DNA from: Streptomyces sp. SCUT-3
GTDB taxonomy: Bacteria > Actinomycetota > Actinomycetes > Streptomycetales > Streptomycetaceae
Reading direction: 5' to 3'
DNA: 64,000 bases
Assembly (NCBI RefSeq): GCF_014083985.1
Contig: NZ_CP046907.1
Span: forward strand, 442,501-506,500
Shown: positions 51,204 through 64,000 of the stretch, one piece after another
Layout of the letters: each line of letters starts with the position of its first letter
Numbering within the stretch: position 1 is the first letter of the stretch
Program-made: the position numbers and the translations under genes
The notes under the pieces: generated by a model
Databases searched by the model: none
Told to the model about the DNA's origin: nothing
Seen by the model: only the letters and a program-made list of their open reading frames with translations

Positions 51204-51364
51204 CCGATAAACCCGACAAAACCACGGCACTCTTCTGAACGGAACGGACTGTTCAGCCCGTCCGTCACTGGTCCCTGCCGATGGGTCTGCAGGGGCCGTC
51301 TGTTGTCACCTCACCGTTCTCCGCACCGGCCGGGTCCAACAATCATGGCGTCCGTGCGACCCGA
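51204..51364. other. Spacer region before CRISPR array 1, with an inverted repeat
   Basis: No gene is supported. CTGAAC (51235-51240) and GTTCAG (51251-51256) form a small inverted repeat, overlapped by ACGGAC / GTCCGT. As the array reads away from its leader toward this side, the hairpin could end the array transcript. Confidence 0.4.
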
Positions 51365-52611
51365 TCGCCGCCCCCGCAGATGCGGGGACGACGCGGCCGG
51401 CGTGTGGACGGTCCAGTCCGACGTCGAACTACCCCCGCGGGTGCGGGGACGACACCAGTTCCCCGTCCTGCTTAACCCAGTACGAGGAACTACCCCCGCG
51501 GGTGCGGGGACGACTCCCAGCCCATCGACGTGATGGAGAACCGCAGGGAACTACCCCCGCGGGTGCGGGGACGACGCCCTCTGCGCGCAGGCAGACCCCG
51601 AACTGTGGGAACTACCCCCGCGGGTGCGGGGACGACCACACCACCGAGTCCCTCGCCGTCGACCGGCTGGAACTACCCCCGCGGGTGCAGGGACGACAAG
51701 GAGTCCATGGAGAAGCCGCGGGGGTCGACCGAACTACCCCCGCGGGTGCGGGGACGACCCATGGGTCCTTGCCGTCCCCGAGGTTCTCGCAGAACTACCC
51801 CCGCGGGTGCGGGGACGACCTGCATTCGTACAAGGAAGGGAACCGGATTCTCGAACTACCCCCGCGGGTGCGGGGACGACGTCCCCCAGTCGCGTGACCG
51901 CGCCTACTGGGCGGAACTACCCCCGCGGGTGCGGGGACGACGTCGGCTCGGGGACGGTGGGGGGTGCGAAGGGGGAACTACCCCCGCGGGTGCGGGGACG
52001 ACATGTCGACCCAGGCGCCGTCGGCCTCGTAGGACGAACTACCCCCGCGGGTGCGGGGACGACTCCTGCAGCTCGGGGGGCAGCTCGGTGTCGGCCGAAC
52101 TACCCCCGCGGGTGCGGGGACGACGCAGCAGGCCGAGGCCGGTGCCGGCCATCGCGAGAACTACCCCCGCGGGTGCGGGGACGACGCGGTTGCCGTACAC
52201 CGGGTGCCGCACCCGGCCGAACTACCCCCGCGGGTGCGGGGACGACCCTGAATGACGATACCGGTAGGTGCCGCAATGGGAACTACCCCCGCGGGTGCGG
52301 GGACGACGTCCGCCGCGCCAACGGCGGGCCCTCGACGCATGAACTACCCCCGCGGGTGCGGGGACGACCCGATACCGATGCATGGCGTGCGGAGTGTGAC
52401 CGAACTACCCCGCGGGTGCGGGGACGACGGACGAGGCCGCCTGAGACGGCATTAACCGCGGGAACTACCCCCGCGGGTGCGGGGACGACGTCGCCTATGG
52501 CCCCTCGTGTCGCTTGATGACAGAACTACCCCCGCGGGTGCGGGGACGACTCCCCCGGGCCCAGCGGCGGTGCCGGGTCCGGGGAACTACCCCCGCGGGT
52601 GCGGGGACGAC
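51365..52611 (-). CRISPR. Type I-E CRISPR array 1 (21 repeats, 20 spacers)
   Basis: 28-bp repeats at a strict 61-base period with 33-bp spacers. In the transcribed (minus) orientation the repeat starts GTCGTCCCCGC, has loop ACCC, stem GCGGGG and ends GTAGTTC. Twenty units are good. The unit farthest from cas2 (51365-51392) is degenerate in its first six plus-strand bases and centre, marking the old end. Unit 51670-51697 has one substitution, and unit 52402-52428 lacks one C. The leader side is at 52612, next to cas2. The degenerate unit at the far end confirms this polarity. Confidence 0.97.
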
Positions 52612-52636
52612 CCTTACTGACCTGGGGTGTTGTCAC
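52612..52636 (-). promoter_or_regulatory. CRISPR array 1 leader-end motif, overlapping the cas2 stop
   Basis: Next to the first repeat the minus strand reads GACAACACCCC then CAGGTCAGTAAGG. Both elements recur in the leader of array 2. The cas2 stop codon (52633-52635) falls in the first element, so only 21 bases separate cas2 from the array and much of the leader must overlap the cas2 coding end. Confidence 0.65.
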
Positions 52637-52980
52637 GTGATCATGCCGTTTTTCTTTACTTCGTTCGATGCCCTCCAAGGCTGTCCGGAGTTCCCTCGTG
52701 GCCTGGACATCAAGGTGAGTCCGTCGAAGTCCGTGGGGGTCCAGCGTTCCTGGCCGGCTGTGCGGACGGTCCATCCCTGCTCCGTCCGGGCCGGCTCGAT
52801 CATGACGGCTTGGCCGTCGCGGATACGGTCGGCCAGGACTTTCCACAGTCCGTCACGGATCCGAGCATTCGGGCTACCGACGAATACGCCGGGGGCCACC
52901 TCGATGAACCAACGGGTCAGGTGCCCTCGGAGCCCCGGAGGGGCCGCGATGAGGACCACCACTGTCGTTGCGGCGCTCAT
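52633..52980 (-). CDS. cas2: CRISPR-associated Cas2e
   Basis: 115 residues, ferredoxin-like fold of the type I-E (CasE-family) Cas2. Features: VVVLIAAPPGLRGHLTRWFIEVAPGVFVG and RIRDGLWKVLADRIRDGQAVMI, then GLTLMSRPRGNSG. It bridges two Cas1 dimers during spacer insertion. The ATG overlaps the cas1 stop (ATGA). Its 3' end doubles as part of the array 1 leader. Confidence 0.96.
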   Translation of the reverse strand: MSAATTVVVLIAAPPGLRGHLTRWFIEVAPGVFVGSPNARIRDGLWKVLADRIRDGQAVMIEPARTEQGWTVRTAGQERWTPTDFDGLTLMSRPRGNSGQPWRASNEVKKNGMIT

Positions 52981-53963
52981 GTGGCCGTGTCTCCGACCGG
53001 GTCCGGGATGATGTCGAGGTGGCTGTCCGGGTCGAAGACGTAGGTGCCCCAGTTACGTCCCCCGCCGACCACGCCGTCCCCGTCGTCCCACAGGCCTCCC
53101 GAGTCCTCTTCCAGCAGGGTGGTGCCCTTCGGGACCAGCAGGTCTCTGATGTCCGCAACGATCCGGGGCAGTAGTTTTCCCTGGACCACGGAATCCCGGA
53201 GAGCTGTGCGTGCGTCCCGTTCCGATGTCAGTCCCTTGGCCGCGAGGTCGAAGGCGAGCGGGATGGTGAACTCGGCCTTGTAGAGGTCGGCGATGTCCAG
53301 GACGAAGGACAGTGCGGAGCCGGTGTGGACGAAGCCCAGGGCCGGGCTGGCCCCGATACCGGTGATGACGGCGTGGCAGATGCCGTACAGAGCCGAGTTC
53401 GCTGCGGACAGGAGCCGGTTGACGTCGTCGCCTGCTGCGAATGCGTCTCCGGGCTTGTAGTCCCGCTTGGTCCATGTCACCCCGGTGCGTTCGGAGTGCT
53501 TGGCGTAGAGGCGGCGTACGCGCGTACCCTCACGCCCCCGTAGCTGCTGGAGAGTCAGCCCGGACGTGTCCTCGTCGGGGAAGCGCAGCTCGTACATGCG
53601 GCGGGCAACTGCAACGCGTTCCTTGGGGCGGGTGGCCAGCCATGCCTGCCGCAGTTGGAGCTGGGAGCCACGGGCGACCCCGTGGCCCGAGGCGTACAGG
53701 CGGACGCCCTGCTCGCCGACCCAGCACATGGATGTGCCGGAGTCGGCGAGCAGCGCGACCGCCCCGTGGGTGATGCGGCTTCCTGGACCGATCAGGAGGA
53801 CGGCGAGCCAGGCCGCCGGTACATGGACCACTCGCGCCTTGTTGATCAGGACGACCGCGTTGTCGTCCCGGTCGATGTGGCATCGTTCGACGTACAGGCT
53901 GGATACCCGGTCCTCCAGTCTGTGCACCTCCTGCGGCCCGGCCCGCCACCACGGCTCAGCCAT
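52977..53963 (-). CDS. cas1: CRISPR-associated integrase Cas1e
   Basis: 328 residues; the integrase that inserts new spacers. The N-terminal beta domain (SSLYVERCHIDRDDNAVVLI) is followed by the helical catalytic domain with the metal ligands Glu in QQLRGREGTRVRRLY, His in LGFVHTGSALSFVLDIADLYK and the Asp residues after it. ATG 53963 overlaps the cas6e end by 8 bases. A ~30-residue glycine/aspartate-rich C-terminal tail extends past the core. Confidence 0.97.
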   Translation of the reverse strand: MAEPWWRAGPQEVHRLEDRVSSLYVERCHIDRDDNAVVLINKARVVHVPAAWLAVLLIGPGSRITHGAVALLADSGTSMCWVGEQGVRLYASGHGVARGSQLQLRQAWLATRPKERVAVARRMYELRFPDEDTSGLTLQQLRGREGTRVRRLYAKHSERTGVTWTKRDYKPGDAFAAGDDVNRLLSAANSALYGICHAVITGIGASPALGFVHTGSALSFVLDIADLYKAEFTIPLAFDLAAKGLTSERDARTALRDSVVQGKLLPRIVADIRDLLVPKGTTLLEEDSGGLWDDGDGVVGGGRNWGTYVFDPDSHLDIIPDPVGDTAT

Positions 53964-54747
53964 TGGCCGTCGCCTTCGCGCGTACCGGCGCCAGGGTGAG
54001 GAGTCCCTGCCCGTACCCCTTGGCCGGTCCGATGCCTCCCAGCAGTGTCGACCGCAGCGCGTCCGGGTCCGTCACTCTCAGCCGCCCCTCGAAGGTGGCT
54101 GTGGACAGGGTGACGCGCGGGCCGTCCCGGTGCTTGCTGAAGCGCAGGATGTCGCGGCTGACGATGGACACGGCAGGCCCCGGCCCGATCGGGCCGTCCT
54201 CGTCGAGTCCGGGGGCCGGCGCGTCGGCCGAGGCTTCGGGAATGGTGAAGCCGTGGCGTTCCGCCCTGTCGATGAGCCAGGCGAGCTGCTGGGCGACCGT
54301 CCGGTGGGCCACGCGGAAGCCGCGGGGGCGGCGGTCGGCGTCGGGCCGCTCGGTGCGGGTCTTCAGGCGCTCGTTCTGCTGCTCGCTCGGTTTGGCGGGC
54401 CTCGGCACGCTCTGGACCGGGTTGGCGGTCAGGCGGAATCCGAATTCCCTTCCTCGCGCAATGCGTTCGAGCAGTGGCGTGTAGTCGGCGATGAGCGGTT
54501 CACCGCCGTCCGCGCCGGGCCAGCCGGCTTCGTCCACCAGGTGCTGCCAGGAGGGGCGGCTCCCGGTGAGGACGAGGATCTCGGCGCGGTGGGCGGTGTT
54601 GTTCTCCAGCCGCCACAGCACACGTTCGGTGACGGGCTGTACGGCGAGGCCCGCAAGGATTGCCGCGTGCAGCCGGTGCGGGTTAGACAGCAGGGAGACC
54701 GCCTTGCGGCGGCGCGGGTTCAGGGCGATTTTCGACAAGTACGGCAT
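53956..54747 (-). CDS. cas6e: crRNA endoribonuclease Cas6e (CasE)
   Basis: 263 residues, tandem ferredoxin folds. It cleaves the repeat hairpin and stays bound as part of Cascade. The catalytic histidine is in LLSNPHRLHAAILAG near residue 26, and the glycine-rich loop is GGIGPAKGYGQGLLTL near the C-terminus. The middle (residues ~105-150) is charged and likely flexible. The start is 4 bases after the cas5e stop. Its expected substrate is the GCGGGG stem of both arrays and perhaps of the mini-array at 59846. Confidence 0.96.
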   Translation of the reverse strand: MPYLSKIALNPRRRKAVSLLSNPHRLHAAILAGLAVQPVTERVLWRLENNTAHRAEILVLTGSRPSWQHLVDEAGWPGADGGEPLIADYTPLLERIARGREFGFRLTANPVQSVPRPAKPSEQQNERLKTRTERPDADRRPRGFRVAHRTVAQQLAWLIDRAERHGFTIPEASADAPAPGLDEDGPIGPGPAVSIVSRDILRFSKHRDGPRVTLSTATFEGRLRVTDPDALRSTLLGGIGPAKGYGQGLLTLAPVRAKATANG

Positions 54748-54751
54748 CGGG

Positions 54752-55546
54752 TCACCACCCCAGGAGAGCGAACGGGTCGTGGTCGGGGTTCACCGAAGGG
54801 GATCCCCTGTCGGCAGGCTTCGTCGCCTCCTGGCCGGTCGGGACCGTGACCCACAGGTGCCGCACCGCGCGGCGGCTGAAGAAGGTGCCCGTCCTGAGGT
54901 CGTAGGTGTCGGGCACGTCGACGGCGAACTGGTCACCGGTGGGGTCTTCCACTGTGGCCTCCAGCGTCACCTCAGTCCCCTGCACCTGGGCCCGCCGGCG
55001 GGTGGACGCCTGCCAGGGCACGTCGGACAGCACGTCCGCGAGTTCGGCGCCGGATCGCAGGCCGAGGCTGACAGGTCCGGTCGGCGGGCAGGAACGGCGG
55101 CCCAGGCAGAGTGGGTGGACGGGGTGGCGCACCGCGTGCTCCAGGCGTTCCAGAAGCGGCCTCGGGCCCCGCAGCGCGGCGACGAATACGGCGTCCTGGA
55201 GGTAGAAACGCTGGGTGACGCCGGTGTGCTTGGCCGGGCTGGTCCTCGTCTGCATGCCTTTGGTGTTCACCTTGGCGGACGGCAGCGGTACGCCCCGGTG
55301 GTCGCTGAAGGTGTGGTAGTCACGCAGCAGTGAGCCCGGCTGGTCGACGCGGATGCCGAGCCGGAGATCGAGCAGGTCGGCGATCGAGGTATCGCGGGAG
55401 CGTCCTTCGGCGGCCGCGAGGAGGCCGAGGATGCCGGACTTGGTGGGCTGGGGCCGGGTTTCGCGCCGGTTGTAGCGGGAGGGACCGCCCCAGGACTGCA
55501 GGGGTGCGGCCAGCCGCATTACGAGGACGGTGTGGTCGGTCGTCAT
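54752..55546 (-). CDS. cas5e: Cascade subunit Cas5e (CasD)
   Basis: 264 residues. The N-terminus VLVMRLAAPLQSWGGPSRYNRRETRPQPTKSG, with the conserved Q-S-W-G and the lysine/serine pair, is the RAMP core that grips the 5' handle of the crRNA. GILGLLAAAEGR follows, and the C-terminal half has LCLGRRSCPP. It overlaps the cas7e stop in ATGA. Confidence 0.95.
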   Translation of the reverse strand: MTTDHTVLVMRLAAPLQSWGGPSRYNRRETRPQPTKSGILGLLAAAEGRSRDTSIADLLDLRLGIRVDQPGSLLRDYHTFSDHRGVPLPSAKVNTKGMQTRTSPAKHTGVTQRFYLQDAVFVAALRGPRPLLERLEHAVRHPVHPLCLGRRSCPPTGPVSLGLRSGAELADVLSDVPWQASTRRRAQVQGTEVTLEATVEDPTGDQFAVDVPDTYDLRTGTFFSRRAVRHLWVTVPTGQEATKPADRGSPSVNPDHDPFALLGW

Positions 55547-56703
55547 GCGTCGGCCTTCGCGATCCGGCCCTCGGCCAGCCACTTCCCGACCAGTTCGCCG
55601 AGCGAGTCGAGCAGCTCGGGGAAGGTGACGGACGGGCCGAACACTTCGGTGACCTTGTCGGCCTCGATGCTGTAGGCGGCCAGGGTGCGGGCCGGTTCGG
55701 CGCCCCAGGTCTCGGCGACGGACCTCAGTTCGTCGGCCAGTCGCACGGCGGACTCGGCCGCCAGGCCGGCGGCTCCCGCCACCGGCTCCTCGTAGGCGGA
55801 GACCAGGTTGACCGGCTGGTCGGTGCGGAGGGTGAGGAGCACCAGGTGGGGCAGGGTGCGGTGGGCGAAGGAGTTCATGTGCCCCGTGGGCATGGAGCGG
55901 GTGAAGGCGTCGACGAAACGCACGGTCGTCTCGCGTGCGGCCTCGGCGGAGGTGAGGTTGTCGCGGAGCTGGTGCACGCCGAGGACCGCGTACCGGTACA
56001 GCGTGGACGAGTTGAACTCGATGGTGCCGATCATGCCTGCGCCGTGGTCCTCGGTGTTCTCGTCGTCCACCGCGGTGTAGTAGTCGAACTCGGTGCGGAC
56101 CGCATGGGTGGACAGGGCGTGCGCGACCTGGACGGCGGCGTCGACGTTCAGCGAGGGCAGGTCGGCGACCATCCGTCCGAAGAGCGCGACCTCGGCAGGG
56201 TGCCCCTTGGTGAGTGTGGCGACGACCGGGAGTTTGGCGACCTGGGCCTTGAGCTCCCCGTCGGGCAGAGCGGCCAGTTCGGCGGCACGGCCGTTCAGCA
56301 GCTTGACGATCTCGTCGAGCTGTCGCTTGCCGAAGAAGAGGAGGTAGGCCGACTGCTCCTCCTTCTTGGACGACTTGGTGATGCCGAGGGGCTCCAGCAG
56401 CGCGGCGGTCAGGCGGTCGGCCTGGGCTGTTTCGAGTCCTGCACCGCCTTCGGCTGCCGGCCGGGTGAGCCGCTCGGCGAGGAGGGAGGCGATCCGCTTG
56501 GTCCGGGTTGCGCGGTCGGCCGGCTCGACGGCCTTGGCGAACTCGGTGCGGGTGGCCCGCTTCCACGCCTGGGAGGAGACTCGAGCGCGGCGGGCGCCGC
56601 CGTAGAGCGCCTGCTTCGGGGTTCCCGAGTCGTCCCGGTTGGCGTTGGACGGCGGCAGGCTCTGCAGGACGTGGACCTCGACGAACAGGGTGGGCTGGGG
56701 CAT
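55543..56703 (-). CDS. cas7e: Cascade backbone subunit Cas7e (CasC)
   Basis: 386 residues. Six copies normally form the helical backbone along the crRNA. Visible hallmarks: FVEVHVLQSLPPSNANRDDSG, PKQALYGGARRARVSSQAWKRATR, DEVALFGRM-like AEVALFGRMVADLP, and SMPTGHMNSFAHRTLP. The ATG at 56703 has GAGGAG 9 bases upstream; an ATG 7 codons earlier is possible. About 104 bases with a hairpin separate it from the Cse2 gene. Confidence 0.96.
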   Translation of the reverse strand: MPQPTLFVEVHVLQSLPPSNANRDDSGTPKQALYGGARRARVSSQAWKRATRTEFAKAVEPADRATRTKRIASLLAERLTRPAAEGGAGLETAQADRLTAALLEPLGITKSSKKEEQSAYLLFFGKRQLDEIVKLLNGRAAELAALPDGELKAQVAKLPVVATLTKGHPAEVALFGRMVADLPSLNVDAAVQVAHALSTHAVRTEFDYYTAVDDENTEDHGAGMIGTIEFNSSTLYRYAVLGVHQLRDNLTSAEAARETTVRFVDAFTRSMPTGHMNSFAHRTLPHLVLLTLRTDQPVNLVSAYEEPVAGAAGLAAESAVRLADELRSVAETWGAEPARTLAAYSIEADKVTEVFGPSVTFPELLDSLGELVGKWLAEGRIAKADA

Positions 56704-56728
56704 GGGCCGGCTCCTCGGTGGCATGAGA

Positions 56729-56746
56729 TGTCGCCGGACGGCGACA
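56729..56746 (-). promoter_or_regulatory. Hairpin in the cse2-cas7e gap
   Basis: TGTCGCC and GGCGACA with a GGAC loop lie in the only sizeable gap inside the Cascade operon (56704-56807). It could be an RNA processing or stability element that raises cas7e expression, since Cas7 is needed in about six copies, or a weak attenuator. Confidence 0.4.
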
Positions 56747-56807
56747 CGGGTCTGAAGACGTAAGGGGGAGGCGGTGCCGGACGGGAAACGGCCGCCCGGC
56801 CCAGGTG

Positions 56808-57959
56808 TCAGGAGTTCGTGGACATGGTCCCGACACGGAAGTCGCGGTCCCAGTGGTCACGGAAACGGCCTTGGGCGTACGGCAGTTCCGGGTCGTCCCA
56901 TGTCCGCAGGGCAGTGCGCAGCAGGTCGTAGTCGAGGCCGATGTCGGCGCGGCTGAGCATGGTGACGAATCCCCGCAGGTGCATCGCCAGCTCGCCGGTG
57001 TCGGTCGAGGTGAGCAGGGCGCCGAACCGGCGTTCCAGTGCTTCCTCACCGCTGCCGCTCCTCACCTGCAGCAGGCGTGCGGCGGTGCCGGGGCTGTTGC
57101 CGGGGACGTGCACCGCCCGGCTGCGGCCCTGCTGGTGCCGGCCGAAGAGGGTCAGTGCGGTGTGTTCGGCGACCAGGTCCCTGGTGAGGGCACCCTTGTC
57201 GCGCAGTTCCGAAGGCATACGGGTCGTGTAGTAGGGCCACATCGCGGGCACGGTGCCGGCTTCCCGCCCGGCACCGGATCTCAGTGCCGCCAACTGCCCG
57301 CCGTTCTCGGGCCGGTCCGGGTCGAACCGCGCCCAGTACGGAAGAGTTTCCGCCTGCCGGTCCGGGGCGTCCCCCGGGGCGGACGGATCACCGTACTGGA
57401 GTCCCCAGGACCGCAGCACCCGGCCCTGGTGCGGCCCTTCCCAGGTGGCCAGGTCGTGCATCAGCCGTGTGTAGTCGAGTCCGATGCCCGACTGCCGCAG
57501 CAGGGGGACGAGCCGGTACAGGTGTTGGACCAGTTCGTGGAGGTCCTGCGCGGTGGCGGCCGCGATCAGCCGCCGTTCCACGGCGCTCTCCGAGAGCGTC
57601 TCGGCTCGGCGCAGCGCCTGGCACGCCCGGCCCAGGCCCGTCCCCGGCCGGTGGACGGGCTCCGCCCCCTGCTGGTGCCTGCCGAACAGGGTGAGCGCGG
57701 CGTGTTCGGCGACGTAGGGGGCCGGTAGGCGGTCCGAGGCCCGTTCGGCGTCCGTGAGCTCCACACGGTGCGCGTACCGCATGGCCGCGACGGTGCCGGG
57801 CTCGTTCCCAATGCCGTCACGCAGGCCGCGCAGCATCCGCGTGATGTTCTCCGAGAACCCGGGCCTGCCCTCCCGTGCGCGGGTGCGCCGGTCGTCGGCC
57901 GCCTCCTCCCAGAAATAGGCACGACGGCCGGTCCGGGGCCCGCCGACTGAGGCGCTCAT
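56808..57959 (-). CDS. casB: Double-domain Cse2 (CasB) fusion, Cascade small subunit
   Basis: 383 residues, about twice the usual Cse2 length, built of two Cse2 domains in tandem. Domain 1 is roughly residues 16-186, domain 2 roughly 207-375. Paired motifs lie 180 residues apart: VAEHAALTLFGRHQQG at 83-98 and VAEHTALTLFGRHQQG at 263-278; GIGLDYTRLMHDLATW and DIGLDYDLLRTALRTW; EPGTVAAM and EAGTVPAM. Cse2 normally sits in Cascade as two copies along the backbone, so this is a covalent dimer. The domains have diverged strongly outside the shared motifs, so the duplication is old. ATG overlaps the cas8e stop (ATGA). No frame break or separate start lies between domains. Confidence 0.93.
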   Translation of the reverse strand: MSASVGGPRTGRRAYFWEEAADDRRTRAREGRPGFSENITRMLRGLRDGIGNEPGTVAAMRYAHRVELTDAERASDRLPAPYVAEHAALTLFGRHQQGAEPVHRPGTGLGRACQALRRAETLSESAVERRLIAAATAQDLHELVQHLYRLVPLLRQSGIGLDYTRLMHDLATWEGPHQGRVLRSWGLQYGDPSAPGDAPDRQAETLPYWARFDPDRPENGGQLAALRSGAGREAGTVPAMWPYYTTRMPSELRDKGALTRDLVAEHTALTLFGRHQQGRSRAVHVPGNSPGTAARLLQVRSGSGEEALERRFGALLTSTDTGELAMHLRGFVTMLSRADIGLDYDLLRTALRTWDDPELPYAQGRFRDHWDRDFRVGTMSTNS

Positions 57960-59641
57960 GTTGTTGCCTTCCCGTTGTCCGGGGATTCCTCGGTGGCCAG
58001 GGGCAGAATCTCGGCAAGTTTCTTGTAGAAGGCCCCGACGGCCTTTCCACTGCGATGGACGACGTCCTTGCCGTTCACCTTCACGACGCGCCCCACCACC
58101 GCACGCGGTGGCACTGCGGCAAGCAGCGTCTCGGCCTCCCTGACGGCCGCCGCCCGCACGGACAGCTCCCAGGCCAACTCGGCGCGCTCCAGCAGATCGT
58201 CGTCCTCGCCGACGGTGCGCAGTCCGGCGAGCAGACGGCGCATGGTTCCGTCGAGGACGTGCAGGAACCGCGAGGAAGGCCGCTGCCCCTTGTCGCGGGG
58301 CAGCGGATCACCGCCCGAGGCGCGCCTCAGGTCGTTGTCGAGGTTGTCCAGGGCACGGCCGGCCCGGTCGGCCTGGCTCGCACATTCCAGGATCACGGCG
58401 CGCAACCAGTCGTTCTCGGCGAGCAGGGAAGCCACGGGGAGCGGCAGGCTGTCACCGATGGCGTTCTCGACGACAGCGGACTGGTTGCCGTATTCGAGAC
58501 CGCAGATCTCCACCCCGAGGGGGTAGTCGGCGGGAAGGGCGTCATCGGCCCGCAGATCGCCTGCCTGCCGGAGGAGGGCGGAGGTGTACGGCCCGTCGCC
58601 CTCCACCGGCAGGGCCAGTGCGAGCAGTGTGCCGAGTCCCTGCCAGGCGGCGCGCCCCGAAACGTGGCGGCGCGGACGTCGCTGGGGTTGCCCGGCTTTC
58701 GGCTTCGCCGTGTGGGACCAGGCGGTGTGCGGGTCCCGCTCCGGTGTCCGGGCCAGCCGGTCACCTGCTGACACGATCACGCGGTGCACGCGCGGCCCTT
58801 CCTCCGTCTCGCGGGCGATCAGCCGGATCCGGCGTGACTGGAAGGTGAACAGGTCCAACAGGCCACCGGTCGGGCGCGTCGACCACTCGGGCCCGGCCGG
58901 GGACTTCCAGCCGAGCGATGCCGGACGCTCGTCCCAGGCCCATTGGGGGCGGTCCGCCGGGTCCAGACCGTCAGGCAGGATCGGCGTGTTCAACATCAGC
59001 GTCTCGAACAGGTTCCGGCCGACCGGGACGACCACCCCGAGCTGACCGAGCGGGCCGGTCGGGTTTCCAGTGGTCTTGCCGTTCTTCGCCTGCGGATCGC
59101 CCACGGCCCCGGTCTTGATGGAAGCCGTGTCCCAGCAGTGCGCGTGGAGCAGCCACAGCAGCGCCTGGCCCGGCGTCAGCAGCAGCTCGTCCGCCTCGGT
59201 GAGCGCGCTGAACAGCGGCACGTTGTTGCCGGAGGCGATCGACGGCACGAGCTGCGCGACCGACTTCGTCTCGCCGTTCAATGCCTCCAGGTCCGCAACC
59301 TGCGCGAACGGCTGCTCGCCTCCCAGGATCCGGAAACGGTCGCCGTAGCGGCGGGGGCCGAGGTAGTCGGTCAGCAGCTCGACCTCGGCGTCCGAGAAGC
59401 GGCCGTGCCCGAACCGCTCCGCCCACTCCCGCCGTGTGCGCGGCACACCGATGGCGTCCAGTACCACCGGCAGCAGAAGCTGCCGAAGCAGTGCGGGCAG
59501 CATCGTCGACGCCGGCAGTTCGAGCCGCTGTGTCGTGTGCGCATCCACCAGCACGTCCAGCAGGCCCGTCGTGCAGCTCGTACCGTCGGCATCGACCGCG
59601 CCCAGCCATGCGCCGCGGACGAGATCTCCGTCGGTCTCCAT
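57956..59641 (-). CDS. cas8e: Cascade large subunit Cas8e (Cse1/CasA)
   Basis: 561 residues, first gene of the Cascade operon. The N-terminal domain reads LLDVLVDAHTTQRLELPAST, typical of actinobacterial Cse1, then GGEQPFAQVADL and LALLWLLH-like QALLWLLHAHCWDTASIKTG. The C-terminal four-helix bundle includes DRAGRALDNLDNDLRRASGG. Cse1 recognises the PAM and recruits Cas3. ATG 59641 has AAGGGGGAG just upstream. The promoter region upstream contains a site matched by the nearby pseudo-spacer RNA. Confidence 0.95.
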   Translation of the reverse strand: METDGDLVRGAWLGAVDADGTSCTTGLLDVLVDAHTTQRLELPASTMLPALLRQLLLPVVLDAIGVPRTRREWAERFGHGRFSDAEVELLTDYLGPRRYGDRFRILGGEQPFAQVADLEALNGETKSVAQLVPSIASGNNVPLFSALTEADELLLTPGQALLWLLHAHCWDTASIKTGAVGDPQAKNGKTTGNPTGPLGQLGVVVPVGRNLFETLMLNTPILPDGLDPADRPQWAWDERPASLGWKSPAGPEWSTRPTGGLLDLFTFQSRRIRLIARETEEGPRVHRVIVSAGDRLARTPERDPHTAWSHTAKPKAGQPQRRPRRHVSGRAAWQGLGTLLALALPVEGDGPYTSALLRQAGDLRADDALPADYPLGVEICGLEYGNQSAVVENAIGDSLPLPVASLLAENDWLRAVILECASQADRAGRALDNLDNDLRRASGGDPLPRDKGQRPSSRFLHVLDGTMRRLLAGLRTVGEDDDLLERAELAWELSVRAAAVREAETLLAAVPPRAVVGRVVKVNGKDVVHRSGKAVGAFYKKLAEILPLATEESPDNGKATT

Positions 59642-59754
59642 GAGACTCCCCCTTCCAAAAATCACGTGCACACCTCACGGACGTGCGCCGGTCGGGCGGG
59701 TAGCCCGGCACTCAAGAACCGGCTTCCCGACGGCCGCCGAGAGCCTTTCAGCAC

Positions 59755-59773
59755 AAGGTTCAATTCTTCAAGC
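59755..59773. promoter_or_regulatory. Candidate Cascade self-target in the cas8e promoter
   Basis: AAG (59755-59757), a canonical type I-E PAM, is followed on the plus strand by GTTCAATTCTT (59758-59768). This matches the first 11 bases of the pseudo-spacer at 59876 except at position 6, which Cascade does not read. On the minus strand a TTGAAG element (59768-59773), 18 bases before AAGGCT, could be the cas8e -35/-10 pair, which the bound complex would cover. Confidence 0.6.
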
Positions 59774-59797
59774 CGTTCGGCAGATTCGGCGGAACTG

Positions 59798-59826
59798 TTC
59801 CGTCGGGCCACGGACCGCGATAGGAT
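59798..59826 (+). promoter_or_regulatory. Promoter for the mini-CRISPR RNA
   Basis: TAGGAT (59821-59826) is an excellent actinobacterial -10 box. TTCCGT lies 17 bases upstream as a weak -35. Transcription from about 59,833 would run into the two repeat-like units and on, antisense, toward the cas3 end. Confidence 0.5.
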
Positions 59827-59845
59827 CCTGCGGGCGCGCGGGGCG

Positions 59846-59917
59846 GTGCCCCCTCCCCGATGCGGGGGTGTTCCCGTTCAGTTCTTGGCAGTCGTCCCCG
59901 CCCTTGCGGGGTGCTCG
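59846..59917 (+). ncRNA. Mini-CRISPR (CreR/CreA-like) guide RNA candidate
   Basis: Pseudo-repeat 1 (59846-59875) has a CCCCG/CGGGG stem and an 8-base handle GTGTTCCC. Pseudo-spacer GTTCAGTTCTTGGCA is 59876-59890. Pseudo-repeat 2 (59891-59917) starts GTCGTCCCCGC, identical to the array repeat, with the same GCGGGG arm and a changed loop and tail. A short GCGCG/CGCGC hairpin at 59927-59940 may terminate it. The plus-strand orientation matches the upstream promoter. The pseudo-spacer matches the cas8e promoter at 59758. CreA (antitoxin) and CreR (cas autorepressor) RNAs have this design; no CreT toxin gene is evident, so autorepression is favoured. The hairpins could alternatively terminate cas3. 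Confidence 0.6.
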
Positions 59918-59946
59918 AAGCTCCGGGCGCGGCTCCGCGCGCTTCA

Positions 59947-62871
59947 TCAACCCTGTTCGACGATCAACCCCAGCACGTCGTCGTACGAGATCCGGTGCCC
60001 GCCCAGCACGGCTTTCCCGTCCTCTTCGAGCACCAGTGCCCGCGCGTACCGGAGCCACGGATGGCCGCTCCACCCCGGCAGCGGTGCGAGTCCCGCTTCC
60101 GTGGCCTCCGCCACCTCTGTCAGCCGTGTCGGCAACCGCACCGTGCCGCCGAGTAGCCGGTCGACCACCGTCTCGTCGACCACTTCGCCGTGGACGCCGA
60201 TCCACGTCCCGTCGTGCGCCCGGCACCCGCCGTCCGAGCGGCGGACGATCACGGTCTCCACCGATCGCCCACCGTCCCGCACCACCGCGTCGAGCTCCTC
60301 CTCCGAAGCCGCCCGGCTGCCCGCGTAGTGGAGTCCCTCCAGGGTCGGCGCCCCCCACTCGCGGGGGCGCGTCAACAAAAAACCCTCGGCGTTCCTCTCC
60401 CGTTGCTCCTGCTTCGCCCGCCACAGCTCCCGGGCTGCTGCCTCGTCCCATTCCGGCGGGCAGATCTCCGGCGTCCCGTAGCCCCTGGCAACCAGGCTCG
60501 GCACATCCGCCGGGATACTCCATCCGGCCTCCGTCGAACCCCCTCCGCCCAGCGGCCCAGCGGCCTCGGCGACCAGGGCCGCCGCCCGCAGCAGCGGCCA
60601 CTCCCCGTAGATCGCCTTCGACGCGGGCAGGAATCGCGGGCGTCCTCCCCCGCCGGCCGCCACACCCGTCACCAGGACGCGCGGCCGGGCGAGCCCCTTC
60701 GGCCGCCTGGTCCCGTCGTGCCGGTGGAGACGCCCGATGCGCTGCAGCAGCAGATCGACGGGGGCGAGATCGGTCACCAGGAGATCCGCATCCACGTCGA
60801 ACGACTGCTCGGCAAGCTGTGTGGCGACCACCACCATCCGGCCGGGCCGCCCCTCACCGGCTCCGGGTCCCAGCAGCCGCAGGCACTCCTCGGTGCGTTC
60901 CGCCCGGTGGGTCGAGCACAACCGCCCGTGCAGCAATCGCAGTTCGCCCTCGAACCCGCCCTCGACCAGTGCCCGGTGGATCGCCTGTGCGCGATCGACC
61001 TGATTGACCACCACCAACGCCACACCGCCGCCGGCGACCGCTTGCCGCACCGCCGCGGCGATCGACGCCCCGTCCCGGTCAATGCCGGGCAACCAGTCGA
61101 CCCGGGTCGGCATCGAACCACGCCAGGACGGCACGGCTTCGCGCGAGCTCACCGCCACCGGAGCCCCGTCGAGCGCGTAAGCAGCAGTGACACACGGATA
61201 GCCGGCGGCTTCAGGAACCGGACAGGCCGCATCGGCCGAGCCGAGGGCACCCGACAGATACGCGTCGGCGAAGGCCTGCCGCTGTACCGGCGGAAGCGTC
61301 GCCGAGAGCAGGACCACCGGAACCCCGGCCTGCCCGAGCCAGCGCAACGCCTCCAGAAGGAACTGCCGCATGTAGACGTCCGCGGCGTGCACCTCGTCCA
61401 CGATCACAACCTTGCCGACCAGCCCGGCGAAACGCAGCATCACATGCCGCGTACGGGTCGCCGCGTGAAGGAGATGGTCGACGGTCCCGACGGCGAACGC
61501 CGTGAGCAGTCCCCGCTTGTTGCCCAGGAACCAGCGCGCCGGACCGTCGGCCCGCTCCTCCGCGCCGCTGCTTCCCTCCGTCGACCAGGAAGGCATGCCG
61601 TACTCGGCATCCTCCTCGGTCGCACCGTAGACATCGAACGGATCAAGGTCGGCCGACTCCCCTTCCCCTGCGAACCCCCCGACCCGGTTCCGCCGCTGCC
61701 CCTCCCATATCTCGCGCCACTCCGGGTTGAACCGGCGCCTGCCGTGCAGCAGCCCGACCTGCGCCTCCAGCTCCGGATCGAACGACCGCACCCAGCTCAG
61801 CACCTGCTCGTACATCGGGTCACTCGTCGCCTGCGTCGGCATGGCCACGAACACCCCGTCCAAACCGAACCGCGCCGCCAACACCTCCGCCGCCGCCAGC
61901 GCGGCCTTCGTCTTGCCCTCCCCCATCGGCGCCTCGGCCACCATCAGCCCGGGAACGGGCATCGACCACGCCTGCTCGACCAGTTCCCGTTGCGAGGCCC
62001 GCGGAACTACCCCCAGGCGCTGTGTCAACGGAGCCAACGGCCCCTCAGGCAGCGGGAGTCCACCCCATCCGCCCCGCAGCCCGAGCCGCCGCCACGCCTC
62101 CTCGGCACGCTGCCGGGAGCCGGCCGGAGACACCTTCCGCGCATCCGCAAGTCCTTCGAACTGTTCGCTGTCACTGGCGATCCAGTCCGCCATGACGATC
62201 AGCCCGGACAGAGCCAACTGCTCCGCCTTGTTCAGCGCGCCCGCCGGCCGCACGTCAGCCAGGTCCTCGAAACCGACGGCTCGGGTGAACACGTCCACGA
62301 CGGCCTTCTGGACCTCCTCCCAAGAGGACCCACGCCCCTGCACCTCACGGTGCTTCGGCCTCAGCCCCTGAACGGACGGAAACGTCCCGTGATGGCCGGC
62401 CACCAGCGGCCACACCCACGCCGCACTGTCCGCGCTCCCCCACTCAGCGACCAGCCTCGGCCTCAGCAACGCCGCCCCCGCCACATCGTGCCGCCATCGC
62501 TGCCTCCGATCCACCGGAAGCCGCCCCCACGCCAGACCGGCCTCCTTGACCGGTGCCGCCTCGGCATCGTCCAACGCCTGAAACGCGGGGCACGCCTTTC
62601 CGCAGTCGTGGATCCCGCAGACCCACATGAACCACGTACGCCCACGCCCGCCGCTGATCTCGTCAAGCCGACGCCGGAACGCGGACGACAAGTAGTGGTC
62701 CCACATCACCCCAGCCACGGCAGCCGTGTCCAGCAAGTGTCCGAGCAACAGGTGCGTCCGCCCCCGATTCCGTGCCGCAGACTTCCCCCACAACCGCGAC
62801 ACCCTGATGACGCTCTCTTCCGACAGCCCCATCACCCGCATCAGGTCGACAACCGACCGCCCATCCTCCAC
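59947..62871 (-). CDS. cas3: CRISPR helicase-nuclease Cas3 (type I-E)
   Basis: 974 residues. The N-terminal HD nuclease has GHLLDTAAVAG with His45 and the HD pair in GIHDCGKACPAFQ (88-89), plus AGHHGTFPSVQG. The SF2 helicase has motif I APMGEGKTKAAL near residue 320, motif II VIVDEVHAADVYM near 490, motif III LLSATLPP and motif VI QRIGRLHRHD. It degrades DNA opened by Cascade. The GTG at 62871 has GGAGGGAG about 10 bases upstream. It is separated from cas8e by 305 bases that contain the mini-CRISPR, so it may have its own promoter. Confidence 0.97.
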   Translation of the reverse strand: MEDGRSVVDLMRVMGLSEESVIRVSRLWGKSAARNRGRTHLLLGHLLDTAAVAGVMWDHYLSSAFRRRLDEISGGRGRTWFMWVCGIHDCGKACPAFQALDDAEAAPVKEAGLAWGRLPVDRRQRWRHDVAGAALLRPRLVAEWGSADSAAWVWPLVAGHHGTFPSVQGLRPKHREVQGRGSSWEEVQKAVVDVFTRAVGFEDLADVRPAGALNKAEQLALSGLIVMADWIASDSEQFEGLADARKVSPAGSRQRAEEAWRRLGLRGGWGGLPLPEGPLAPLTQRLGVVPRASQRELVEQAWSMPVPGLMVAEAPMGEGKTKAALAAAEVLAARFGLDGVFVAMPTQATSDPMYEQVLSWVRSFDPELEAQVGLLHGRRRFNPEWREIWEGQRRNRVGGFAGEGESADLDPFDVYGATEEDAEYGMPSWSTEGSSGAEERADGPARWFLGNKRGLLTAFAVGTVDHLLHAATRTRHVMLRFAGLVGKVVIVDEVHAADVYMRQFLLEALRWLGQAGVPVVLLSATLPPVQRQAFADAYLSGALGSADAACPVPEAAGYPCVTAAYALDGAPVAVSSREAVPSWRGSMPTRVDWLPGIDRDGASIAAAVRQAVAGGGVALVVVNQVDRAQAIHRALVEGGFEGELRLLHGRLCSTHRAERTEECLRLLGPGAGEGRPGRMVVVATQLAEQSFDVDADLLVTDLAPVDLLLQRIGRLHRHDGTRRPKGLARPRVLVTGVAAGGGGRPRFLPASKAIYGEWPLLRAAALVAEAAGPLGGGGSTEAGWSIPADVPSLVARGYGTPEICPPEWDEAAARELWRAKQEQRERNAEGFLLTRPREWGAPTLEGLHYAGSRAASEEELDAVVRDGGRSVETVIVRRSDGGCRAHDGTWIGVHGEVVDETVVDRLLGGTVRLPTRLTEVAEATEAGLAPLPGWSGHPWLRYARALVLEEDGKAVLGGHRISYDDVLGLIVEQG

Positions 62872-63010: not shown

Positions 63011-64000
63011 GTCGTCCCCGCACCCGCGGGGGTAGTTCGGGGCCGCGGTCGCGCAGGATGCTCCACGAGACGTCGTCCCCGCACCCGCGGGGGTAGTTCG
63101 GTGGACCCCCGGGGGCCGGGGGTGGGCATGGGGTCGTCCCCGCACCCGCGGGGGTAGTTCGCGCGGCGCCGCCCACGACCGTCCGGAGTCCGGGTCGTCC
63201 CCGCACCCGCGGGGGTAGTTCGGCTGAGCGATGACCCCACGCTGCGGGCCGAGCGTCGTCCCCGCACCCGCGGGGGTAGTTCGCCACTGGTGGGGGGACA
63301 TCGGGGGGTAGGGAAGTCGTCCCCGCACCCGCGGGGGTAGTTCCCTGTTCCCCTGAGAGGGGGGAACGCCCGGGGAGTCGTCCCCGCACCCGCGGGGGTA
63401 GTTCGGCGATCCTGGACTTCTACGGAGCCCCGATCGGGTCGTCCCCGCACCCGCGGGGGTAGTTCGTTCCCCGGCCGCGGGTGGTGGTCCGGGCGCCCGT
63501 CGTCCCCGCACCCGCGGGGGTAGTTCCTGCTGCGCAGTCTCCGGCATCGGTCCGCCAAGGTCGTCCCCGCACCCGCGGGGGTAGTTCGATGAGCAGGTAG
63601 ACGGTCCACAGCGGGACGAGGTCGTCCCCGCACCCGCGGGGGTAGTTCGACGACCTGTGATGACGTGGCCTCCGCCGCGGCGTCGTCCCCGCACCCGCGG
63701 GGGTAGTTCCGTGATCTTCGTGCTGACCGACGGGGCCGGATCGTCGTCCCCGCACCCGCGGGGGTAGTTCGACCGGGTGGACCATCAACCAGGACGGCAG
63801 CGCGTCGTCCCCGCACCCGCGGGGGTAGTTCGCCCCGCTGGAAGTCCCGCCTCCGCTGGGACGAGTCGTCCCCGCACCCGCGGGGGTAGTTCGCTGGGCC
63901 CGGCGGCGGCGGCGATCTGCACCAGGTCGTCCCCGCACCCGCGGGGGTAGTTCGCCGATGTCCGGGCCGTTCACGTTCGACCTGATGTCGTCCCCGCACC
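63011..64000 (+). CRISPR. Type I-E CRISPR array 2 (16 full repeats and one cut by window end)
   Basis: The same 28-bp repeat as array 1, here on the plus strand, at an exact 61-base period with 16 visible 33-bp spacers. All visible repeats are identical, and the seventeenth is cut at base 64000. The base after the repeat is G in 13 of 16 cases and C in 3, as expected if it comes from an AAG-type PAM during acquisition. The array runs beyond the window, so its old end is not seen. Confidence 0.97.

Follow-up and report, generated by a model that had tools for sequence, protein, structure and literature searches.

A mini-CRISPR in the cas3-cas8e gap of a Streptomyces type I-E locus, predicted to guide Cascade to the promoter of its own operon

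The primary report on CreRs (cas-regulating RNAs), covering types I-B, I-E and V-A, is said to be that of Liu et al. 2023 in Cell Host Microbe. In the available portions of the reviews, CreRs are described as RNAs whose partial match to the cas promoter brings about autorepression in types I-B, I-E and V-A (PMC13131331, PMC12737573, PMC12948488). The CreA guides of CreTA modules are described in the I-B systems of H. hispanica and H. hubeiense and in the I-F system of Acinetobacter (PMC8501985, PMC9458426, PMC10097628). Single mutations at positions 1-5 and 7-11 of a haloarchaeal CreA are given there as abolishing repression, and those at positions 6 and 12 as leaving it intact (PMC8501985), and the pseudo-spacer of the Acinetobacter type I-F CreA as 20 nt long (PMC10097628). 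For type I-E, the excerpted text gives an 8-nt handle, a base flipped out at every sixth position, and six Cas7 subunits along 32 nt (PMC5965380). Here we describe an element which, on its sequence, reads as a well-supported case of an already published kind, the CreR; self-repression of this sort is already known, and the idea is therefore not new as a kind. As in the reviewed CreRs, a degenerate mini-CRISPR lies next to the cas genes, partial seed complementarity with a PAM is found to the inferred promoter of its own cas operon, no coupled toxin gene was seen when the leader was compared by eye, and autorepression by the system's own effector is the proposed outcome. The two degenerate repeats, the pseudo-spacer, the 1-5/7-11 seed with a PAM (as in I-B) and the repression of a promoter by Cascade, here predicted, are also shared with CreA as described in the available text; unlike CreA, the target is the cas8e promoter, and no toxin RNA gene was found under it, judging from the clade B spacing and from the clade A leader by eye. 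The Racr RNA anti-CRISPRs of phages are likewise stand-alone CRISPR-repeat-like RNA genes, but they are described as residing in viral genomes and inhibiting Cas (PMC10651486), whereas this element lies in a host cas locus and has a conserved guide. No Cse1 relatives were found in viral contigs.

The window, a stretch of 64,000 nt from Streptomyces sp. SCUT-3, has at its end a complete type I-E system, with cas3 followed by cas8e-cse2-cas7-cas5-cas6-cas1-cas2 on the minus strand (52633-59641). Two arrays, both with the repeat GTCGTCCCCGCACCCGCGGGGGTAGTTC, flank these genes (51360-52612 on the minus strand and 63011-64000 on the plus strand). The cas3-cas8e gap spans 305 nt, from the cas8e start at 59641 to the cas3 stop at 59947, and its crRNA strand is the plus strand. 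The cse2 gene is a single ORF whose two Cse2 domains share 41% mutual identity; this fusion was observed in 18/18 clade A Streptomyces loci (L002-L019), and a single Cse2 in 26/26 more distant loci. One array spacer (51759-51791, minus strand) is identical at 31 of its 33 bases to the lysin gene of Streptomyces phage Yara, with weaker matches to the lysin genes of many Streptomyces phages. At the PAM place of this best phage match either AGT or GAG is found, and since the phage matches of the array spacers are too few and imperfect, the PAM could not be fixed from them. Base 29 of the window arrays varies (G/C/T/A), like the third base of the creR PAM, which is consistent with an AAN PAM but no proof of it.

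The gap carries a two-repeat mini-CRISPR on the plus strand, in the order R1, pseudo-spacer and R2 (Table 1). The preliminary description had placed here a TAGGAT promoter element, two degenerate repeats and a 15-nt pseudo-spacer, and had stated that 18 of the array repeat's first 21 bases are kept in R2; all of these were recovered. Its naming of R1 as a repeat held for the stem-loop and the handle, but outside these parts R1 falls well short of a complete repeat. Its handle differs from that of the array itself (GTAGTTC-N), and its type, GTGTTCC-N, is common to 18/19 clade A relatives. Cas6 processing is well established in type I-E systems and is the basis on which a mature CreR of 44 nt is predicted; the predicted hairpins and the handle length would fit a Cas6-processed RNA carried by the effector, and the I-E geometry of handle, flipped bases and Cas7 subunits leads to the prediction of a 44-nt RNA carried by Cascade. 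In addition, R1-spacer-R2 is surrounded in most clade A relatives by an outer stem (59833-59943) with a length of about 12 bp or more. Because RNAalifold, applied to 17 clade A genes aligned with MAFFT, left this stem unaligned and returned no covariation term, the pairing of own and swapped arms was compared instead. The arms gave a mean of -30.5 kcal/mol with their own partner vs -25.0 kcal/mol with a swapped one, and 4/19 arms paired best with their own partner, which moderately supports the predicted outer stem. No Rfam family was found for the gap.

Table 1. Positions, in the window, of the mini-CRISPR, its target and the cas genes
Feature	Position	Strand	Remarks
Putative cas8e extended -10, TGA-AAGGCT	59742..59750	-	18 nt from -35; by conservation
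PAM AAG	59755..59757	+	AAN in 51/51 matched loci of relatives
Target protospacer GTTCAATTCTT	59758..59768	+	sole mismatch to guide at position 6
Putative cas8e -35, TTGAAG	59766..59771	-	by target-anchored conservation, 19 clade A loci
Putative -10 of creR promoter, TAGGAT	59821..59826	+	TACCCT/TACTCT/TACGCT at aligned place in relatives
Outer stem 5' arm	59833..59844	+	encloses R1-spacer-R2
R1, degenerate repeat	59848..59875	+	stem 59854-59859/59863-59868 plus 8-nt 5' handle; predicted hairpin
8-nt handle GTGTTCCC	59868-59875	+	part of R1
Pseudo-spacer GTTCAGTTCTTGGCA, 15 nt	59876..59890	+	seed positions 1-5 and 7-11; offset test in 51 relatives peaks only at the 59876-type start
R2, degenerate repeat	59891..59911	+	18/21 vs array repeat; Cas6-type hairpin kept (z -3.3); 3' handle half lost
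Predicted mature CreR RNA, 44 nt	59868..59911	+	8 handle + 15 spacer + 21; from I-E Cas6 processing
Outer stem 3' arm	59932..59943	+	just past cas3 stop
cas3	59947..62871	-	upstream of gap; TIGR01587/TIGR01596
cas8e (cse1/casA)	57956..59641	-	first gene of regulated operon (predicted); NCBIfam TIGR02547
cse2 (cas11)	56808..57959	-	tandem Cse2-Cse2 fusion, 383 aa
cas7	55543..56724	-	TIGR01869
cas5	54752..55543	-	TIGR01868
cas6	53956..54747	-	TIGR01907
cas1	52977..53963	-	PF01867
cas2	52633..52980	-	PF09707

The PAM and the site together read AAG/GTTCAnTTCTT (59755-59768), and the 6.07-Mb genome contains a single copy of this PAM-plus-seed pattern, AANGTTCANTTCTT, with no occurrence of the reversed control. 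The handle was used to set the guide start, and the target region of the window gap was subjected to 20,000 dinucleotide shuffles; one of these yielded a seed match of 10/10 with AAN. In order to follow the match in relatives, Cse1 homologues were drawn from genome collections and plasmids and their cas3-cas8e gaps were extracted. The R1 handle alone sets the first 11 guide bases, and the best match elsewhere in the gap is then scored at positions 1-5 and 7-11; the handle expression was widened once, since its first version missed handles such as ATGGCTCC, and the controls were run with the widened rule. A match of at least 9/10 seed bases with an AAN PAM was found in 51/56 distinct anchored gaps of related I-E loci, and at the same threshold in 3/11,200 shuffles and in 6/2,578 guide swaps, in which a guide was set against the gap of another locus having an unlike guide. 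Identity over the 51 loci was 94-100% at positions 1-5 and 7-11, 24% at position 6, 10% at position 12 and at background after that, and the PAM was AAC in 23 loci, AAG in 12, AAT in 12 and AAA in 4. Furthermore, when the assumed guide start was moved by 1 nt, the share of loci reaching 9/10 or more was 0.39 or 0.25, compared with 1.0 at the original start, and three of the five mismatches outside position 6 set a guide G against a protospacer A (rG-dT wobbles). The preliminary description had claimed that the first 11 pseudo-spacer bases match at 59758 except for position 6, directly preceded by AAG, that pairing ends after base 11, and that chance was an improbable explanation; the first two claims agree with the positions found here, and the others are borne out by the background identity from position 12 onward in the relatives and by the shuffles of the window and of the relatives.

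Three more loci (L007, L015 and L045) were recovered from incompletely extracted gaps. In the gap of L045 the promoter site and creR are parted by an inserted segment of about 2 kb that contains transposase-like sequence, and even so 9/10 seed bases match. In a later set examined with the same rule 30/36 loci were positive, giving 22 new distinct pairs, all with AAN and 18 of them mismatched at position 6. The mini-CRISPR layout was found in most related loci, and the loci with the matching pattern come from Streptomyces, Kitasatospora, Nonomuraea, Streptosporangium, Actinomadura, Sinosporangium, Rhizohabitans and Streptoalloteichus. None of 18 more distant loci from a class-level search (L093-L110) passed the rule, nor did L078; by eye, a 20-nt spacer and a seed match with AAT that the expression had missed were found in L102, and the pattern was not found in the other 17/18, most of these gaps lacking a second repeat. 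Instead of a mini-CRISPR, many of L093-L106 and L110 have in common, at the cas8e promoter, a block resembling GATGTACCAGgGCCCaCCGACAGTTTTC. The same mini-CRISPR gap was also seen in I-E systems on linear and circular plasmids of Streptomyces and Kitasatospora (L135-L144), where the gap has no annotated feature in those records that carry annotation. A diverged Streptomyces I-E clade (L080, L083 and many others; 33-37% Cse1 identity) has open frames that extend over both cas3 and cse1 for about 1,500-1,700 codons; these are probable gap-less Cas3-Cse1 fusions.

Among the 51 loci there are 42 different seeds, and every one of them is matched by a promoter site of its own. On the Cse1 tree, parsimony over the ten paired positions together gave 110 changes for the guide, 113 for the target and 115 for the pair; the tree has open forks, and these figures are minimum counts on one tree rather than exact events. 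As the three counts are nearly equal, nearly every change was made on both sides. At position 6 the counts were 11, 23 and 29, as for independent drift. The match and the PAM have persisted across more than 70 distinct loci, although guide and target underwent about 110 coordinated changes. The preliminary description had proposed to align this gap in related strains, and had named unrelated pseudo-spacers lacking a promoter match as the outcome that would speak against it; the opposite was found, since each differing pseudo-spacer matches its own site and the two co-vary across the 42 seeds.

A scan of the gap with the sigma-70 consensus found no promoter, and the cas8e promoter was therefore placed by conservation anchored on the target. 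In the 19 clade A loci, read on the cas8e strand, the target has a conserved TTG on its upstream side and a conserved TG-n-nAnnnT on its downstream side, the spacing of the hexamers being 18 nt; this would put the target between -35 and extended -10 elements of the cas8e promoter. The clade B seed overlies a -10-like box, TARACA, which is conserved and lies 20-30 nt before the cas8e start (loci including the whole gene). The overlap of the target with a plausible cas8e promoter, also claimed in the preliminary description, is thus consistent with a site inside a conserved promoter-like element. Many clade A leaders (e.g., the gap of L016) also contain an inverted repeat, for example CAACTTGC-N-GCAAGTTG, downstream of the cas8e promoter, which is possibly the operator of a protein regulator.

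We consider it highly likely that the gap encodes a CreR, i.e., a crRNA-like RNA with its own promoter that guides Cascade to repress its own cas8e-cas2 operon, so that the immune machinery very probably uses a guide to turn itself down. The layout, the seed and PAM match, its uniqueness in the genome, the co-variation in relatives and the promoter-like conservation are direct observations. A short RNA would be transcribed on the plus strand from its own promoter (-10 at 59821); the Cas6 of the system would probably cleave it at R1 and R2, and the product of about 44 nt would be taken up by Cascade. Its ten seed bases would then pair with the minus strand at 59758-59768, beside the AAG PAM, and the bound Cascade would block transcription of cas8e-cse2-cas7-cas5-cas6-cas1-cas2, because the site lies between the putative -35 and extended -10. 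We also infer that repression would be relieved when crRNAs or anti-CRISPRs occupy Cascade. The chromosome would be spared Cas3 cutting, because pairing that ends at base 11 is far less than Cas3 recruitment requires; with an 11-base match, binding but no cleavage would be expected, since E. coli Cascade is described as binding with as few as 5 bp and AAG, and interference as needing more than 18 bp (PMC5904413, available text). By analogy, the main counter-argument to repression by CreR comes from the same text, in which short-seed binding by E. coli Cascade left transcription unchanged and mismatches distal to the PAM make the occlusion of promoters weaker (PMC5904413). The 15-nt length of the window pseudo-spacer, the handle unlike that of the array and the placing of the promoter by conservation also count against this reading.

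An antitoxin of the CreA type, in which the guide represses a small toxin RNA (creT) encoded between the target and cas8e and thereby forms an addiction module, would share the 1-5/7-11 seed rule, and in clade A about 100 nt lie between the promoter and the cas8e start, leaving room for a small RNA. In clade B, however, the target ends 20-30 nt before the cas8e start in the loci with the whole gene, and because no room for a toxin gene is left there we regard an addiction module as very unlikely; furthermore, the clade A leader is poorly conserved save for short blocks, and no shared small ORF was seen by eye. The degenerate repeats and the handle unlike that of the array would also suit a relic mini-CRISPR, now non-functional, that matches the promoter by chance, but the match and PAM kept in the more than 70 loci and the 3/11,200 shuffles make this extremely improbable for the window; as a general account it is refuted by the match rule in relatives, the parsimony counts and the later set. 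We attach just as little probability to the two similar 11-mers being an operator pair for a protein regulator. The two copies do adjoin two divergent promoters, but their identity is bounded exactly at positions 1-11 from an 8-nt handle with position 6 exempt, AAN flanks the target copy only, and the sequence varies among relatives, which argues against a protein operator because such a site would be conserved in sequence.

The pseudo-spacers, taken as all bases lying between handle and R2 (checked by eye as far as the stem in L024, L029, L041, L062, L069, L072 and L073), are 14, 20, 26, 32 or 44 nt long (6n+2) in 52/54 loci, the exceptions being the window (15) and L079 (33). The Cse1 tree requires a minimum of 12 changes in length. 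The nearest relatives of the window have 14-nt pseudo-spacers, and the window is one base longer. In the later set the lengths were 14 (eight loci), 20 (three), 26 (three) and 32 (six, three of them by eye), and L131 (21) was off the ladder, with L123 ambiguous between 20 and 21; every deviation is of +1, as in canonical spacers of 32 or 33. Since six bases are one Cas7 footprint, the simplest reading is that these CreRs load into Cascades with 3 to 8 Cas7 subunits. On balance we favor the view that actinobacterial I-E CreR pseudo-spacers evolve in whole Cas7 footprints and form natural miniature or enlarged regulatory Cascades (3, 4, 5, 6 or 8 Cas7) beside the full-size immune complex, as a lead rather than a tested mechanism. 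In the clade of the window the ladder coincides with the fused Cse2-Cse2 small subunit. The quantised lengths seen in these relatives are apparently new: in the portions of the papers surveyed, neither the CreR nor the CreA accounts mention a 6-nt ladder.

These results indicated that the window holds a clear case, predicted from its sequence, of a CRISPR-Cas system that represses itself by means of an RNA guide. Together with its relatives it provides about 75 natural pairs of guide and target, which show by evolution which bases matter, namely ten seed bases, the AA of the PAM and a free sixth position. The ladder suggests that regulatory guides load into Cascades of differing size, and if this is true, cells could separate repression from immunity by the size of the complex. 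For work on Streptomyces, the endogenous I-E system should become active once creR or the site that it targets is deleted.
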